Origin: Phycisphaerales bacterium
GTDB taxonomy: Bacteria; Planctomycetota; Phycisphaerae; Phycisphaerales; UBA1924
Reading direction: 5' to 3'
NCBI GenBank assembly: GCA_029260345.1
Contig: JAJDDK010000005.1
Location: forward strand, 620,001-684,000
Length of the DNA: 64,000 nucleotides
Shown: piece after piece, positions 40,418 to 45,798 of the stretch
Numbering within the stretch: the first letter of the stretch is position 1
Layout: every line of letters starts with the position of its first letter
Made by a program: the position numbers and the translations under genes
The notes under the pieces: generated by a model
The model's input: the letters and a program-made list of their open reading frames with translations, nothing else
What the model was told of the DNA's origin: nothing
Database searches by the model: none

Positions 40418-41716
40418 ATGAATCGATTCGCTGTGGTTGCGCTCGGAGTTGGGGTGCTCGGTGTTTGGTCGAATGCGCTGGGCGCTCCGTTGACGCCGCC
40501 GCCCGGGGCCGTGAGCGCTACAGGATCCACGCAGATTTTCTCGGTTCCGTTCACGATTACGCAGCCGGGCGCTTATCGCCTCGGACGCAATGTCGCGATG
40601 TCGTCGTCGACGAATGGCATTGTCATTCAGTCGAGCAATGTGACGCTTGATCTTGGCGGTCACACGCTTGATGGCGCCAACATCGGGATTGAAGGGATCG
40701 TACTTGACGGCGCCCTGAGCAATGTGACCATTCAAAATGGTGTGATCGCAAATTGGCTCAACGCGGGTGTGTATTCAGGCGGCGACGATGACATCAATGT
40801 CACGTGCAAGGAACTTGAAATCAGCAACATTGGTTTTGGCGGGATCGAATTCTTCAACTCGCAGGTCAATGTTCGAAATTGTGCGATCCGCACCGGCAAT
40901 CCGGGCATCGCTGTCGGCCAGGGCAGCATTGTGGAGAACTCGCACATCGGGTCAACGGTGGGCGCCGGCATTTTCGCGGGAATCGGCTCGGTCATCTCGA
41001 ATTCGACCGTGCACACAGCCGGCGGCGACGGCATTTTTACCGGCACGAATTGCCTGGTGAAGGGTGTGACGGTCACACTCGGCGCCTTGAGGGGCGTCAC
41101 GCTTGGCGACAACAGCGTGATGGTGGAGAGCGCCGTGCACCAGTCGGGCGTGCTCGCGGCCGCGGCTTCGTCGGAAGATCAAATCATCATGCGCAACCCG
41201 CGCACCGGCGAAGTGGTCGAGATTCATTCACTGGCGCTACTTGAGCCAACGGTGGTCAGCCAGCGCGGGGGCGAGGCGACGCCAAACCTCACGTATGCGC
41301 TTCTGACGGCCGAAGGCGGCGCCGGCATGGGCGTCGCGGCTGGTTTGCGCTGCCGCATTGAGGATTGCGTCATCAGCAATGGCGCGGCGGCCGGTGTCGT
41401 GCTTGGTGACGGCGGCTACATCAGCGACACGATCGTGACGAACAATTTTGGCGCCGGCATCGTGACCGGGTTCTTTGGATCCGTGGTGCGATGCAATGTG
41501 GTGGCGAATTTTGGTGACGGCATTGTCGTGAACGGCGAGGACAATCTCATCGACGGTAACTCCATTTCCGTCAATCTCAATGGGATCGTGTTGAACGACA
41601 ACTTCAACCGTGTCGTGCACAACGACCTCTCCTTGAATTCGATCATTGACAATGCAGGCAATACGTTGCCGCCGCTCAGCGATGTGACCAATTCCTGGAC
41701 GAACTTCTCCGACTGA
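40418..41716 (+). CDS. Secreted right-handed parallel beta-helix protein (cassette copy 1)
   Basis: 432 residues from the ATG at 40418, preceded by AGGGAG. A signal peptide (VVALGVGVLGVWSNALGA) is followed by PLTPPPGAV...TITQPGAYRLGRNV and then many short repeats with Asn ladders (GIVIQSSNVTLDLGGHTLDG, GIEGIVLDGALSNVTIQNGVI, GIFAGIGSVISNSTVHTAGG, GIVTGFFGSVVRCNVVANFGDGIVV). This is the pectate-lyase-like NosD/beta-helix fold, used for carbohydrate binding or cleavage. Catalytic residues not identified. It lacks the dockerin repeats of its neighbour. Confidence 0.85.
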   Translation: MNRFAVVALGVGVLGVWSNALGAPLTPPPGAVSATGSTQIFSVPFTITQPGAYRLGRNVAMSSSTNGIVIQSSNVTLDLGGHTLDGANIGIEGIVLDGALSNVTIQNGVIANWLNAGVYSGGDDDINVTCKELEISNIGFGGIEFFNSQVNVRNCAIRTGNPGIAVGQGSIVENSHIGSTVGAGIFAGIGSVISNSTVHTAGGDGIFTGTNCLVKGVTVTLGALRGVTLGDNSVMVESAVHQSGVLAAAASSEDQIIMRNPRTGEVVEIHSLALLEPTVVSQRGGEATPNLTYALLTAEGGAGMGVAAGLRCRIEDCVISNGAAAGVVLGDGGYISDTIVTNNFGAGIVTGFFGSVVRCNVVANFGDGIVVNGEDNLIDGNSISVNLNGIVLNDNFNRVVHNDLSLNSIIDNAGNTLPPLSDVTNSWTNFSD

Positions 41717-41783
41717 TCGTGCGAATAGGAATCCGATTCGACGGTTTTCTGGGTCGAACAGACGCCGCACAAAGGAGATCATC

Positions 41784-42422
41784 ATGCGATCAGTCTTGAT
41801 TCTTGGGGCCGCGTTCGCGATCACAAGTCCCGCGCTCGCCCAGTCCAACATCAGCCCGACGAATAAACATGCGTGGGGCGAGAACATTGGCTGGACGAAC
41901 TGGCGCGACGGCAACGGCGGAACGCAGGGCGCGGTGATTGGGATTCGGTTCGCTTCGGGTTTTATCTGGAGCGAGAACGTGGGCTGGATCAATCTCGGGG
42001 ACGGCACACCCGTCAACGGGACCAACTACAGCAATGCAAACGGCGCTGATTCGGGCGTGAATGTGCTTCCCAGCGGATTCCTGAGCGGATTCGCATGGGG
42101 TGAGAACATCGGCTGGGTGAATTTCGGCACGCAGCCATCAATCGGCGCCAATGGCGCTCGTGTCGATGGCGGCCGGCTCGCCGGTTTTGCGTGGTCGGAA
42201 AACGCCGGGTGGATCAATCTGGATTCCGCGGTCAGTGGGAAGTTTGTCGGATTGAACTGCGCGGCGGACTTCAACAACGACGGGGTGGTGAACGGAGCTG
42301 ACCTTGCGACGCTGCTCGCAAACTGGTTGGCGCCGGGCGGGCTGCCGGACCTCAACGGGGACGGCGTGGTCAATGGCGCTGACCTCGCGCAGCTGCTCGC
42401 CAATTGGGGAGTGTGTCCGTAA
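41784..42422 (+). CDS. Secreted WxENxGW-repeat protein with C-terminal dockerin-like repeats (cassette copy 1)
   Basis: 212 residues, AAAGGAG upstream of the ATG. Signal peptide (ILGAAFAITSPALAQ), then four W-[GS]-E-N-x-G-W motifs (WGENIGW, WSENVGW, WGENIGW, WSENAGW), each followed by T/I/V-N. A cysteine-bounded tail has two calcium-binding motifs, DFNNDGVVNGADLATLLANW and DLNGDGVVNGADLAQLLANW, matching the type I dockerin loop D-x-N-x-D-G. These repeats are common on planctomycete secreted proteins, likely for surface anchoring or sorting. The product of 44238-44876 is nearly the same. Confidence 0.85.
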   Translation: MRSVLILGAAFAITSPALAQSNISPTNKHAWGENIGWTNWRDGNGGTQGAVIGIRFASGFIWSENVGWINLGDGTPVNGTNYSNANGADSGVNVLPSGFLSGFAWGENIGWVNFGTQPSIGANGARVDGGRLAGFAWSENAGWINLDSAVSGKFVGLNCAADFNNDGVVNGADLATLLANWLAPGGLPDLNGDGVVNGADLAQLLANWGVCP

Positions 42423-42487
42423 ACGGTCGGGAGAGAGAGAAGAGGTCGGGAGAGAGACAACGCGAGCAATTGCGTTGGGAGTTGAAT

Positions 42488-42530
42488 GAACGCCGCGCGT
42501 CCGAAGGGACATGCGGCGTTCGTTCGCTTT
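42488..42530 (+). terminator. Intrinsic terminator after cassette copy 1
   Basis: A 9-bp perfect stem (GAACGCCGC, 42488-42496; GCGGCGTTC, 42513-42521), with a 16-base loop, is followed by GTTCGCTTTTG. It lies 66 bases after the stop codon. The T-tract is interrupted, so termination strength is uncertain. Confidence 0.6.
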
Positions 42531-42851
42531 TGATGAGGTGACAAGCGTGCAATGAGTTCATGCAAGACGCTGACTTGTCCCGCAGGTCCGCCGCAGAGCC
42601 TCTGAGTGTTCGAATTCGCTTGCGAAGCGTGCATGTCTCACGAGGGATGGCAGTTTCTTGGAATAGTCCGCCCGATTGAGGCGCCGGCGTCGTTCACCTT
42701 CGCAGGAGCGCTGGGACTCGCCGCGCGGACTGTGTGTTTGTCCGGACGCGTGGCCACGGCATGGGGTTTCTTCGCCAGTCGCAGCGAGGGTCGTTGCGGT
42801 GTTGCAAAGAGAGGGCTTCGAGGGGCCCGAGAGATCAACAGAGGGGTTTCT
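42531..42851. other. Leader region of cassette copy 2
   Basis: About 320 bp between the terminator and the second beta-helix gene. An open frame runs in phase with the gene back to 42606, but only from 42852 is there a signal peptide and a ribosome site. No promoter hexamers are convincing. Confidence 0.4.
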
Positions 42852-44192
42852 ATGAAAACGTTCGCTATCGTCGCGTCCGCCGGTTGCCTGTGTGCTGTTT
42901 CCGCCGTCACCAGCGCTGAGCCGCTGAATCCGCCGGCGGGTCCGGTCGCCGGAACCGGCGCCACGCAGATATTCCAGCTTCCATTCACAATTACTCAGCC
43001 GGGTTCGTATCGCCTGGCTCGTGATGTCACGTCGCCCGGCGGCAATGGCATCACGATCACCGCGAGCAATGTGACGCTCGATCTCGGCGGCCACACGATG
43101 AATGGCAGCGGCGACGGCGTTGAAGGCATTTTGTTGAGTGGCAATCTCGAAGGCGTCACGATTCAGAACGGAACGATCACGAACTGGGTCAATGCCGCAA
43201 TCTTTGATGGGTTCAGCGCGGACACTGGTGTGGTCGTGCGTGAGATTCGCGCCACGAATTTGGGTCTTGAGGGCATCCGACTGAGTGCCTCTGACGCGCT
43301 CATTATTGAATGTGTGGTGACGAACGCGGTTGGTCCCGGCGCTTTCGGCGCCGCGCCCGAGGGCGGTGCTTTGTCCGGCCAGGGGATTTGGGTTGGCAAC
43401 AACAGTCGCATCATTGACTGCAAGGTCGTCAACGCCGGCGATGAGGGCATTCTCGCCGGCATCAACGCGGTCATCACAGGCTGCATCGTCGATGGCGCGA
43501 CGTTTCTCGAAGGGGCTGCCGGCATCGCCGCCGGCAACAACGCCATCATCGAGAATTGCGTCGTGACGAATAGCTCGTCAGGCGGATTCGCGGTTGGTCA
43601 GGAGTCGAACCTCAGCAACTGCACGGCGACGAACAACTTCGGAGTCGTTGCGGTCTCCGGCGGTACGGTGGATCGCCGCACCGGTGAGATCGTTCCGCTG
43701 TATGAGCCAGCGCCGTCGACGATTGATGCGCGCACGGGTCAGCCGATCATGGATGTTTCCTATGCGCTATTGACGGCAGAAGGCGGGGGCGCTGCGGAAG
43801 GCTTTGTGGTCGGCGATGGCAGTCGCATCAAGAATTGCATCGCGGACAGTAATTCCGGAACCGGATTCTTTCTGTCGAACGAGAGCTATATCACGGAGTG
43901 CGTCTCGAACGCCAATGGCGTCGATGGCATCCGCGTCGCTGATGACAACGTGGTCAATGACAATCGCGCCTCCTCGAACAGTGGCAATGGCTTCGTGATC
44001 GGCAGCAACGGCAATCATGTTGAAGGAAATTATGCCTCCGACAACTCCGCCGATGGGTTCCAGATTAATGACAGCTTCGTCGTCTTCATTCGCAACCACG
44101 TGGAACTCGACAACATCAATAATGTCAACGGCGCACCACTCGTTGGCCCGATCAACGATTTGACCAGCCCGAGCTCAAACTGGTCTCAGTGA
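42852..44192 (+). CDS. Secreted right-handed parallel beta-helix protein (cassette copy 2)
   Basis: 446 residues. Signal peptide (IVASAGCLCAVSAVTSA), then PLNPPAGPVAG...TITQPGSYRLARDV, matching copy 1. Beta-helix rungs follow (GITITASNVTLDLGGHTMNG, GIWVGNNSRIIDCKVVNAGDEGI, GNNAIIENCVVTNSS, NYASDNSADGFQINDSF). An insertion with acidic, less repetitive sequence (RRTGEIVPLYEPAPSTIDARTGQPIMDVSYALL) corresponds to RNPRTGEVVEIHSLALLEP in copy 1, so the pair shares a non-helix domain too. Substrate unknown. Confidence 0.85.
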   Translation: MKTFAIVASAGCLCAVSAVTSAEPLNPPAGPVAGTGATQIFQLPFTITQPGSYRLARDVTSPGGNGITITASNVTLDLGGHTMNGSGDGVEGILLSGNLEGVTIQNGTITNWVNAAIFDGFSADTGVVVREIRATNLGLEGIRLSASDALIIECVVTNAVGPGAFGAAPEGGALSGQGIWVGNNSRIIDCKVVNAGDEGILAGINAVITGCIVDGATFLEGAAGIAAGNNAIIENCVVTNSSSGGFAVGQESNLSNCTATNNFGVVAVSGGTVDRRTGEIVPLYEPAPSTIDARTGQPIMDVSYALLTAEGGGAAEGFVVGDGSRIKNCIADSNSGTGFFLSNESYITECVSNANGVDGIRVADDNVVNDNRASSNSGNGFVIGSNGNHVEGNYASDNSADGFQINDSFVVFIRNHVELDNINNVNGAPLVGPINDLTSPSSNWSQ

Positions 44193-44237
44193 TTGATTTT
44201 TCCCTCTGAATCTGCACAATTAGAAAAGGAGATTCTC

Positions 44238-44876
44238 ATGAAATCGATCCTGACCATCGCGGCGGTGCTTGCCGTCGCGGCCCCGAGCCTTGCCCAGTCC
44301 AACATCGACCCCGTCGACAAACGCGCCTGGGGTGAGAACATCGGCTGGACGAACTGGCGCGATGCGAACAATGGCGCCCAAGGCGTCGTGATCGGCACTC
44401 GTTTCGCTTCGGGGTTTGTCTGGGGCGAGAACGTTGGCTGGATCAATCTCGGCGACGGGACGCCCTCCAACGGGACGGCCTACAGCAACGTGAATGGCGC
44501 CGATTCCGGTGTGAACGTTCTCCCCAACGGTTTCCTGCAAGGATTCGCGTGGGGCGAGAACATCGGCTGGGTGAACTTCGGCACGCAGCCGTTCGTTGGG
44601 AATGACGGCGCTCGCGTTGAGGGCGGCCGATTGACAGGCTTCGCCTGGGCGGAGAACGTCGGCTGGATCAATCTTGATTCCGCCGAGAGCGGCAAGTTTG
44701 TCGGACTGAACTGCCTGGCGGACTTCAACAACGACGGCATCGTGAACGGCGCCGACCTCGCAACGCTGCTTGCGAATTGGCTCGCTCCCGGCGGTCTGCC
44801 GGACCTGAATGGCGACGGCGTTGTGAACGGCGCCGATCTGGCGCAACTGCTCGCCAATTGGGGGCCATGCCCGTAA
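44238..44876 (+). CDS. Secreted WxENxGW-repeat protein with C-terminal dockerin-like repeats (cassette copy 2)
   Basis: 212 residues, exactly the length of the copy 1 product, and by eye about four-fifths identical to it, including the terminal DFNNDG and DLNGDG repeats. Signal peptide (LTIAAVLAVAAPSLAQ) and AAAAGGAG upstream of the ATG. Four WxENxGW motifs in the same places. The gene lies 45 bp after the second beta-helix gene, as copy 1 does (67 bp), so this is a tandem duplication of a two-gene unit. A good terminator follows. Confidence 0.85.
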   Translation: MKSILTIAAVLAVAAPSLAQSNIDPVDKRAWGENIGWTNWRDANNGAQGVVIGTRFASGFVWGENVGWINLGDGTPSNGTAYSNVNGADSGVNVLPNGFLQGFAWGENIGWVNFGTQPFVGNDGARVEGGRLTGFAWAENVGWINLDSAESGKFVGLNCLADFNNDGIVNGADLATLLANWLAPGGLPDLNGDGVVNGADLAQLLANWGPCP

Positions 44877-44910: not shown

Positions 44911-44950
44911 CAAGACCTCCGCATGAATTTCCTGCGGGGGTCTTGTTTCA
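44911..44950 (+). terminator. Intrinsic terminator after cassette copy 2
   Basis: CAAGACCTCCGCA (44911-44923) pairs with TGCGGGGGTCTTG (44933-44945), a 13-bp stem with one T-G wobble and a 9-base loop, followed by TTTCATT. Strong candidate terminator between the cassette and the sigma factor gene. Confidence 0.8.
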
Positions 44951-44988: not shown

Positions 44989-45798
44989 ATGGGCAATGGA
45001 AACGCACTCGCTGAACTTTCCGCCGCGGAAGCGGTGCCGCAACTTGTCGAGCAGTACGGTGATCGCATGTACGCGCTGGCGCGGCGGATGAGCGCTTCAG
45101 AGGCGGATGCGCACGATCTGGTGCAGGAGACCTTTCTTCGCGCGTTTGAGAAGTGGGACCAGTTCGAAGGCCGCGCTGATCCGGGAACGTGGCTGCACAC
45201 GATTCTGGTGCGGCTGTTTTCGAAGTCGCTGAAGAAGAAGCAGACGCGAGCCGCGCACGGCTCGATGGTGCCCTTTGGTGATCGGGTGCTTGATTTGCCC
45301 GGTGATGGCGACAGCCCGCTTGAAGGTCAGATTCGAGCGGAGGCAAAAGAAGTGGTCGATGAAGCGATTTCGCAGTTGCCGGTCGAGATGCGCATTCCGC
45401 TAGTGCTGCGTGAGATTGCGGAACTGCCCTACAGCGACGTCGCGGCAATTCTCGGTTTGAAGGAGCCGACGGTGCGCACGCGCGTGCATCGGGGGCGACT
45501 CTTGCTTCGAGAAGCGATGTTGGAAGGGTTGCCAACCAAAAAAGCGCCTCCCGCGACGGCAAGCAAGAAGTTGTGCATGGATTTGCTGGCGGCGAAGCAG
45601 GCAGCGTTTGACAACGGCGTTGCATTCCCGGTCGCTGATGAATGGTGCGAGCGCTGCAAACTGGTGTTTCGTGATCTCGATGTGACCGCGTCGTTGTGTC
45701 ATTCGCTCGGTGAGGCAGAGCTTCCAGAGGATCTCAAGGCAGAAGTCATGATGGCTGCCGCGAAGAATGGCGCCAAAGAGAATTCCTCAAAACACTGA
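44989..45798 (+). CDS. ECF-type RNA polymerase sigma factor with extra C-terminal Cys domain
   Basis: 269 residues; core ECF factors have about 190. Region 2 spans about residues 20-80 (AHDLVQETFLRAFEKWDQFEGRADPGTWLHTI) and region 4 about 125-180 (LPVEMRIPLVLREIAELPYSDVAAILGLKEPTVRTRVHRGR). Residues 180-269 add a domain with Cys196, Cys220, Cys223 and Cys237 (WCERC), which may bind zinc like an anti-sigma ZAS domain. It follows the beta-helix cassette and a terminator and precedes the YeeE pair; no separate anti-sigma gene is seen. Confidence 0.88.
   Translation: MGNGNALAELSAAEAVPQLVEQYGDRMYALARRMSASEADAHDLVQETFLRAFEKWDQFEGRADPGTWLHTILVRLFSKSLKKKQTRAAHGSMVPFGDRVLDLPGDGDSPLEGQIRAEAKEVVDEAISQLPVEMRIPLVLREIAELPYSDVAAILGLKEPTVRTRVHRGRLLLREAMLEGLPTKKAPPATASKKLCMDLLAAKQAAFDNGVAFPVADEWCERCKLVFRDLDVTASLCHSLGEAELPEDLKAEVMMAAAKNGAKENSSKH

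Follow-up and report, generated by a model that had tools for sequence, protein, structure and literature searches.

The window analysed here, a 64,000-nucleotide stretch of the genome of a Phycisphaerales bacterium, contains two tandem units, each pairing a gene for a secreted beta-helix (BH) protein with a gene for a secreted protein carrying four WxENxGW motifs, here called WX. Judged from the sequences of relatives, what the partners of WX have in common is a leader located just after the signal peptide rather than the beta-helix itself, and the genetic link between this leader and WX is strong. We propose that WX, secreted and held at the surface, acts as an adaptor for leader-bearing "passenger" proteins, a model to which we give an even chance.

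Organization of the two units

The bh1-wx1 and bh2-wx2 pairs occupy positions 40418-44876 on the plus strand as two tandem bicistronic units. The earlier note had described them as two cassettes of a secreted beta-helix protein and a 212-residue protein with four WxENxGW motifs, and the open reading frames confirm this. The features are the following.

40418..41716, plus strand: bh1, open reading frame of 432 aa; secreted leader and predicted right-handed beta-helix protein
40481..40522, plus strand: leader of bh1, GAPLTPPPGAVSAT, from the translation; its position matches that of the leader in relatives
41684..41713, plus strand: tail of bh1, ending TNSWTNFSD, a divergent form of T[DN]PxANFxY-COOH, from C-terminus-anchored conservation
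41771..41779, plus strand: ribosome site of wx1, AAAGGAGAT, from the sequence
41784..42422, plus strand: wx1, open reading frame of 212 aa; signal peptide, WX domain with four WxENxGW motifs and C-terminal tag
41847..42242, plus strand: WX domain of wx1, from the alignment
42258..42422, plus strand: dockerin-like two-repeat tag of wx1, from Pfam Dockerin_1 and the tag search
42483..42526, plus strand: terminator-like hairpin 3' of wx1, stem of 15 + 4 bp followed by CTTTTG, fold z -5.4
42852..44192, plus strand: bh2, 446 aa from the ATG at 42852; secreted leader and right-handed beta-helix protein
42915..42956, plus strand: leader of bh2, AEPLNPPAGPVAGT, from the leader profile (E 1.2e-4 in its own genome)
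44160..44189, plus strand: tail of bh2, ending LTSPSSNWSQ, a divergent form of T[DN]PxANFxY-COOH, from C-terminus-anchored conservation and the model
44224..44234, plus strand: ribosome site of wx2, AAAAGGAGATT, from the sequence
44238..44876, plus strand: wx2, 212 aa; signal peptide, WX domain with four WxENxGW motifs and C-terminal tag
44301..44696, plus strand: WX domain of wx2, beta-hairpins, from the alignment and AF2 model
44712..44876, plus strand: dockerin-like tag of wx2, from Pfam Dockerin_1, the tag search and Foldseek
44911..44945, plus strand: terminator-like hairpin 3' of wx2 followed by TTTC, fold z -3.4

A good ribosome site precedes each wx gene. The hairpins 3' of wx1 and wx2 are stronger than 200 of 200 shuffles; they were detected by folding and are absent from the output of a consensus terminator scan. 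Folding found no hairpin of note in the bh-wx intergenic gaps. With a hairpin following both wx genes and nothing notable between bh and wx, the two genes of a pair seem to form a single bicistronic unit. The claim that each gene has its own ribosome site and terminator therefore stands for the wx ribosome sites, but a terminator is present per pair and not per gene. Directly after the wx2 terminator there is an open reading frame for an ECF-type sigma factor-like protein (44989-45798, plus strand).

A third bh-wx pair is located about 245 kb away in the same genome (G000:C5:414555-417131). The two WX proteins of the window are 82% identical, and the two BH proteins are 35-39% identical over their full length. 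The dS is close for both families, at 1.28 and 1.37, and near saturation, whereas dN is 0.12 for wx1/wx2 and 0.61 for bh1/bh2. Similar dS with unlike dN fits duplication of the whole unit, after which WX was conserved and BH diverged freely. A low dN in wx with a high dN in bh is also as expected for a fixed adaptor with varying passengers.

The beta-helix proteins

In the AF2 model of bh2 (pLDDT 81), a beta-helix spans approximately residues 38-420; confidence is low for the leader and over the final 19 residues. The sequence of bh2 matches PF13229 (Beta_helix) at 4.5e-17 (62.5 bits against a cut-off of 25.9). There is no Pfam match for bh1 itself; it is a clear homologue of bh2 (2e-69), and its parallel beta-helix fold is predicted by homology to bh2 only. 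Both proteins contain an insert that is not beta-helix and is marked by RTGE[IV]V ... YALLTAEGG, at about 41180-41330 in bh1 and 43650-43790 in bh2, where the bh2 model is of low confidence.

The BH proteins end in a motif, T-[DN]-P-x-A-N-F-x-Y-COOH, fixed to the stop codon. When conservation was anchored at the C-terminus over 93 BH proteins, the motif was present in 86 of them, and Asn was found at -4 in 89 (96%). The bh2 version falls in the low-confidence region of the model.

The WX protein

There are exactly four WxENxGW motifs per WX protein and none in bh1 or bh2. The AF2 model of wx2 has a mean pLDDT of 87, exceeding 90 across most of the WX domain, and consists of successive beta-hairpins around the motifs, followed by the two-helix tag. 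The WX domain has no PDB match by fold (Foldseek) or by profile, and Foldseek searches of PDB and viral structures with WX gave only matches to the dockerin part or at chance level. No family in Pfam, NCBIfam, PHROGs or PDB matches it beyond a weak similarity to ChW (PF07538), which weakly matches 2 of 25 WX domains with a best E of 0.003. ChW repeats resemble WX in being repeats with a conserved GW, but the similarity is not significant for most WX members and is a lead only. Neither an enzyme family nor a catalytic motif was found in the domain by Pfam, NCBIfam and profile searches, and the proteins of the window have no match to a CTERM-type motif (PEP-CTERM, IPTL-CTERM or GlyGly-CTERM).

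WX-like repeats also occur in other architectures without a clear leader, in genomes G277, G497 and G510. The WX-like repeat proteins of G277 (loci L244 and L245) adjoin very long open reading frames with "GPAVTGKTLDEIYAKTP", which resembles the second half of the leader described below.

A leader on partners of different folds

The leader has the consensus A-G-[PD]-L-x-P-P-x-G-P-V-x-x-T-x-[KH]-T-L-x-E-[VI], which as a peptide is written GPLNPPAGPVAPTYKTLTEVEPR. The leaders of bh1 and bh2 are without the KTLxEVEPR half, and that of bh1 scores poorly against the leader profile in its own genome (E 0.32). In loci that lack BH, the gene upstream of WX often has the leader on another fold. One such fold is the Hcp/TssD tail-tube domain (PF05638), which carries the leader in L102 (3e-28), L173 (2e-29) and the window's own genome (C6:269802, 5e-21). 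Hcp/TssD proteins with signal peptide and leader are seen at L102:7189-7884, L173:7162-7890 and L205:4758-5426, and in L102 and L173 they are adjacent to WX. The window's own genome encodes nine leader proteins, namely seven BH proteins, one with the Hcp domain and one without an assigned domain.

We considered the beta-helix as the defining conserved partner of WX and rejected it because leader genes with other folds replace it. The BH C-terminal motif was likewise rejected as a general partner signal; it is absent from the Hcp-like and other passengers and so cannot be the common element. The suggestion that the anchored partner might bind the beta-helix protein thus retains good genetic support, from co-conservation and from the tag on WX, but it had misdefined the partner, which is marked by the leader rather than the beta-helix. 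Leaders like these presumably also occur on hypothetical proteins of Verrucomicrobiota; if those are without WX, the link would not be obligatory there.

Pairing and co-occurrence of the leader and WX

A search of GTDB genomes with the WX-domain alignment yielded 80 loci, nearly all from metagenome-assembled genomes (MAGs) of Phycisphaerae; most of the genomes are MAGs, and one locus outside Planctomycetota is from Hydrogenedentota (L173). Two loci, L152 and L153, are in MAGs titled Cyanobacteria and Leptolyngbya, and have a Phycisphaerae-type cassette; these MAGs are probably mislabelled. Of the 79 WX genes with enough upstream sequence to be counted for pairing, 59 have BH directly upstream, all on the same strand and in runs of 1-7 BH genes. 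Co-conservation of the two genes had been set beforehand as a point on which the pairing would stand or fall, and these counts uphold it. By regular expression, a leader protein ends within 700 bp upstream of WX in 55 of the 80 cases, and there are 7 matches on the opposite strand or downstream across all loci.

The association extends to whole genomes. Using a leader profile that was built from WX-adjacent genes, so that its reach into WX-free lineages is limited and unlike leaders there could be missed, leader genes were detected in 13/13 WX genomes versus 0/11 WX-free genomes of the same family, in 21/25 versus 0/173 among 198 genomes of the class, and in 11/14 versus 0/329 among 343 genomes of the phylum. 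Fisher tests that ignore relatedness give 4e-7, 1e-24 and 2e-18, respectively. Four genomes of the class that seemed to have WX without a leader (G096, G228, G171 and G203) were rejected as exceptions; a divergent leader gene adjoins WX in each locus. The possibility that BH and WX are ordinary neighbours, two unrelated families duplicated together by chance, has in its favor that the two are secreted families built of repeats and present in many copies in planctomycete genomes, but the same-strand adjacency and a genome-wide co-occurrence that holds even when the genes are non-adjacent refute it and leave it scarcely credible.

The numbers of the two genes can be very unequal. Genome G022 carries two WX genes, neither of them adjacent to its leader genes, which number about 83, so the relation is many-to-one and, if functional in that genome, would operate in trans. 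Leader genes away from WX are also found in G016, G004, G007 and G019. Many of the leader/beta-helix genes of G022 lie in runs (L211-L217; C14:8001-72000, C23 and C6), with about 28 on one 60-kb stretch.

The dockerin-like tag

The dockerin-like repeats that had been noted on both WX proteins are borne out as a duplicated calcium-loop module of dockerin type by Pfam Dockerin_1 scores of 29.4 bits for wx1 and 28.6 bits for wx2, against a cut-off of 22.9. Each tag is bounded by Cys159 and Cys211, and the tag in the wx2 model superposes on the type II dockerin 2y3n_B with a TM (target) of 0.83 and an rmsd of 1.2 A (Foldseek). Scores against NF041540 are 28.3 and 27.0 for the WX proteins of the window and 39.0 and 38.1 for those of relatives, with a cut-off of 29. 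The tag is on WX in nearly all loci. As had been noted for the window, the anchor repeats are missing from the partners: none of 96 leader proteins carries the tag.

At least 126 proteins of the window's own genome (G000) have a tag like that of WX. The tag sequence behaves as a genome-specific "dialect": tagged proteins within one genome share it, and it differs from the tags of sister genera. The WX tag of G020 used as a query found 151 copies in G020 (60-88% identical among the matches listed, query excluded), 56 in G008, 6 and 3 in two other genomes, and none in the remaining 37, G000 included. The reciprocal query with the G000 tag found none in G020. These differences between genomes suggest coevolution with a tag receptor. 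In two genomes, a different tail replaces the tag on WX, a V/IPTxSxWG sorting tail of CTERM type, in L159 (IPTL_CTERM, 20.7 bits against a cut-off of 20.5) and, read from the sequence, in L255 (L255:4778-5374). This swap suggests that the job of the tag is envelope attachment.

Proposed function of WX and its alternatives

In the adaptor model, the passengers, here two beta-helix proteins, would be exported by the Sec pathway, and cleavage by signal peptidase would expose their N-terminal leader. WX, encoded in the same operon or at another place in the genome, would also be exported and would be held at the envelope via its C-terminal dockerin-like tag, which is common to more than 100 other proteins of the genome. 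By capturing the leaders, the Trp-rich hairpin domain of WX would then display passengers that have no tag and differ in fold. Support for this model comes from the operon-like pairs, the shared leader, the tag present on WX only, the genome-wide co-occurrence, and the presence of many passengers for few WX proteins. Going beyond these observations, we infer from the sequences that leader and WX may touch directly, that WX probably resides at the envelope, and that display may be the purpose.

The main rival casts WX as a factor dedicated to the export or maturation of leader proteins, a periplasmic chaperone or leader-peptidase helper, and not as their final anchor. It accounts for the many-to-one ratio about as well as an adaptor does: two WX proteins for about 83 passengers in G022, acting in trans, also fit a chaperone or processing role, as do the leader genes distant from WX in the four other genomes, and the position of the leader is precisely that expected of a signal for processing or for a chaperone. 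Against it, WX itself bears the general tag of its genome, which in L159 and L255 gives way to an IPTL-type sorting tail, and the WX domain has no signature of an enzyme. On this evidence, we consider it unlikely, though deserving of serious attention.

A second alternative, in line with the glycan-binding or adhesion system suggested in the earlier note, is that one envelope polysaccharide or matrix is bound by WX and by BH alike, the two being co-expressed but not in direct contact. Repeats rich in Trp are often involved in carbohydrate binding. By profile, BH matches mannuronan C5-epimerases (2pyg, 2e-13), and the bh2 model has Foldseek matches to AlgG/AlgE, NosD and lyases. BH thus resembles AlgE4/AlgG, NosD and PL6 lyases in having a right-handed parallel beta-helix by fold and profile similarity, but the identity in the fold matches is only about 10-14%. 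Alginate-epimerase-like and polysaccharide-binding activities are candidate roles for BH. Since sharing a polysaccharide accounts neither for a short leader that is also on Hcp-like and unassigned domains nor for the absence of leader genes from the WX-free genomes searched, we regard it as improbable as an explanation of the pairing.

Finally, the dockerin itself might be the functional joint of a cohesin-dockerin assembly like a cellulosome, with the BH pairing incidental. The tag scores above the Dockerin_1 cut-off and its model overlays a type II dockerin, and a cohesin-based "planctosome" has been proposed for Nemodlikiaceae (PMC6461901). WX shares with such assemblies a C-terminal dockerin-like module and the logic of an adaptor, but the passengers lack a dockerin, and the candidate joint is between the leader and the WX domain. 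Cohesin (PF00963) has no match in the window's own genome and is present in only 5 of 61 relatives. Cohesin was therefore rejected as the partner of the tag, and there is no support for dockerin binding of the kind that builds cellulosomes. With the tag also varying by genome, and with the BH-WX pairing kept in the two genomes that have an IPTL-type tail, we think an assembly of this type very unlikely.

Relation to known systems

The logic of the adaptor model has precedents. In the PEP-CTERM/EpsH (PMC1569441) and GlyGly-CTERM/rhombosortase (PMC3237569) systems, a short tag is found on many unlike exported proteins, and the partner gene occurs in the same genomes in a many-to-one relation recognized by phylogenetic profile. 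The leader and WX similarly share a phylogenetic profile, and the likeness is one of logic, not of membership. The CTERM tags are C-terminal and include a membrane helix, and a membrane protease-like enzyme processes them, whereas the leader stands at the N-terminus of the mature protein and its partner is a soluble Trp-repeat protein without an enzyme signature. The GC-type dockerin-anchored proteins of NF041540 likewise have a two-repeat C-terminal tag, here on more than 100 proteins per genome; compared by name, that family covers the tag only, and not the genome-specific tags or the pairing of WX with the leader. The Hcp-like passengers resemble Hcp/TssD of the type VI secretion system in their PF05638 domain, with matches down to 2e-29, but are distinguished by a signal peptide and leader and, in two cases, by pairing with WX. 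Searches of the open-licence literature for WxENxGW, GC-type dockerin and Phycisphaerae dockerin returned nothing on the BH-WX pair, and it is in the sense of not being found there that we call the leader-WX system undescribed.

Significance

Planctomycetes export many proteins of unknown role, and little is settled about how these are sorted or held. With a short leader and one partner that co-occurs with it, planctomycete protein sorting becomes testable. Two layers can be separated: a genome-wide C-terminal tag that differs between genomes, and a leader-based layer served by WX. Somewhat short of an even chance, in our estimate, this may be a new display principle, in which a receptor of four WxENxGW hairpins would recognize a PPxGPV leader at the mature N-terminus of unrelated folds, with one or two receptors for up to about 80 passengers and a genome-specific dockerin-like tether carried by more than 100 proteins. 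If the direct binding is true, the leader and WX would constitute a small pair for protein display that is useful in practice in bacteria.
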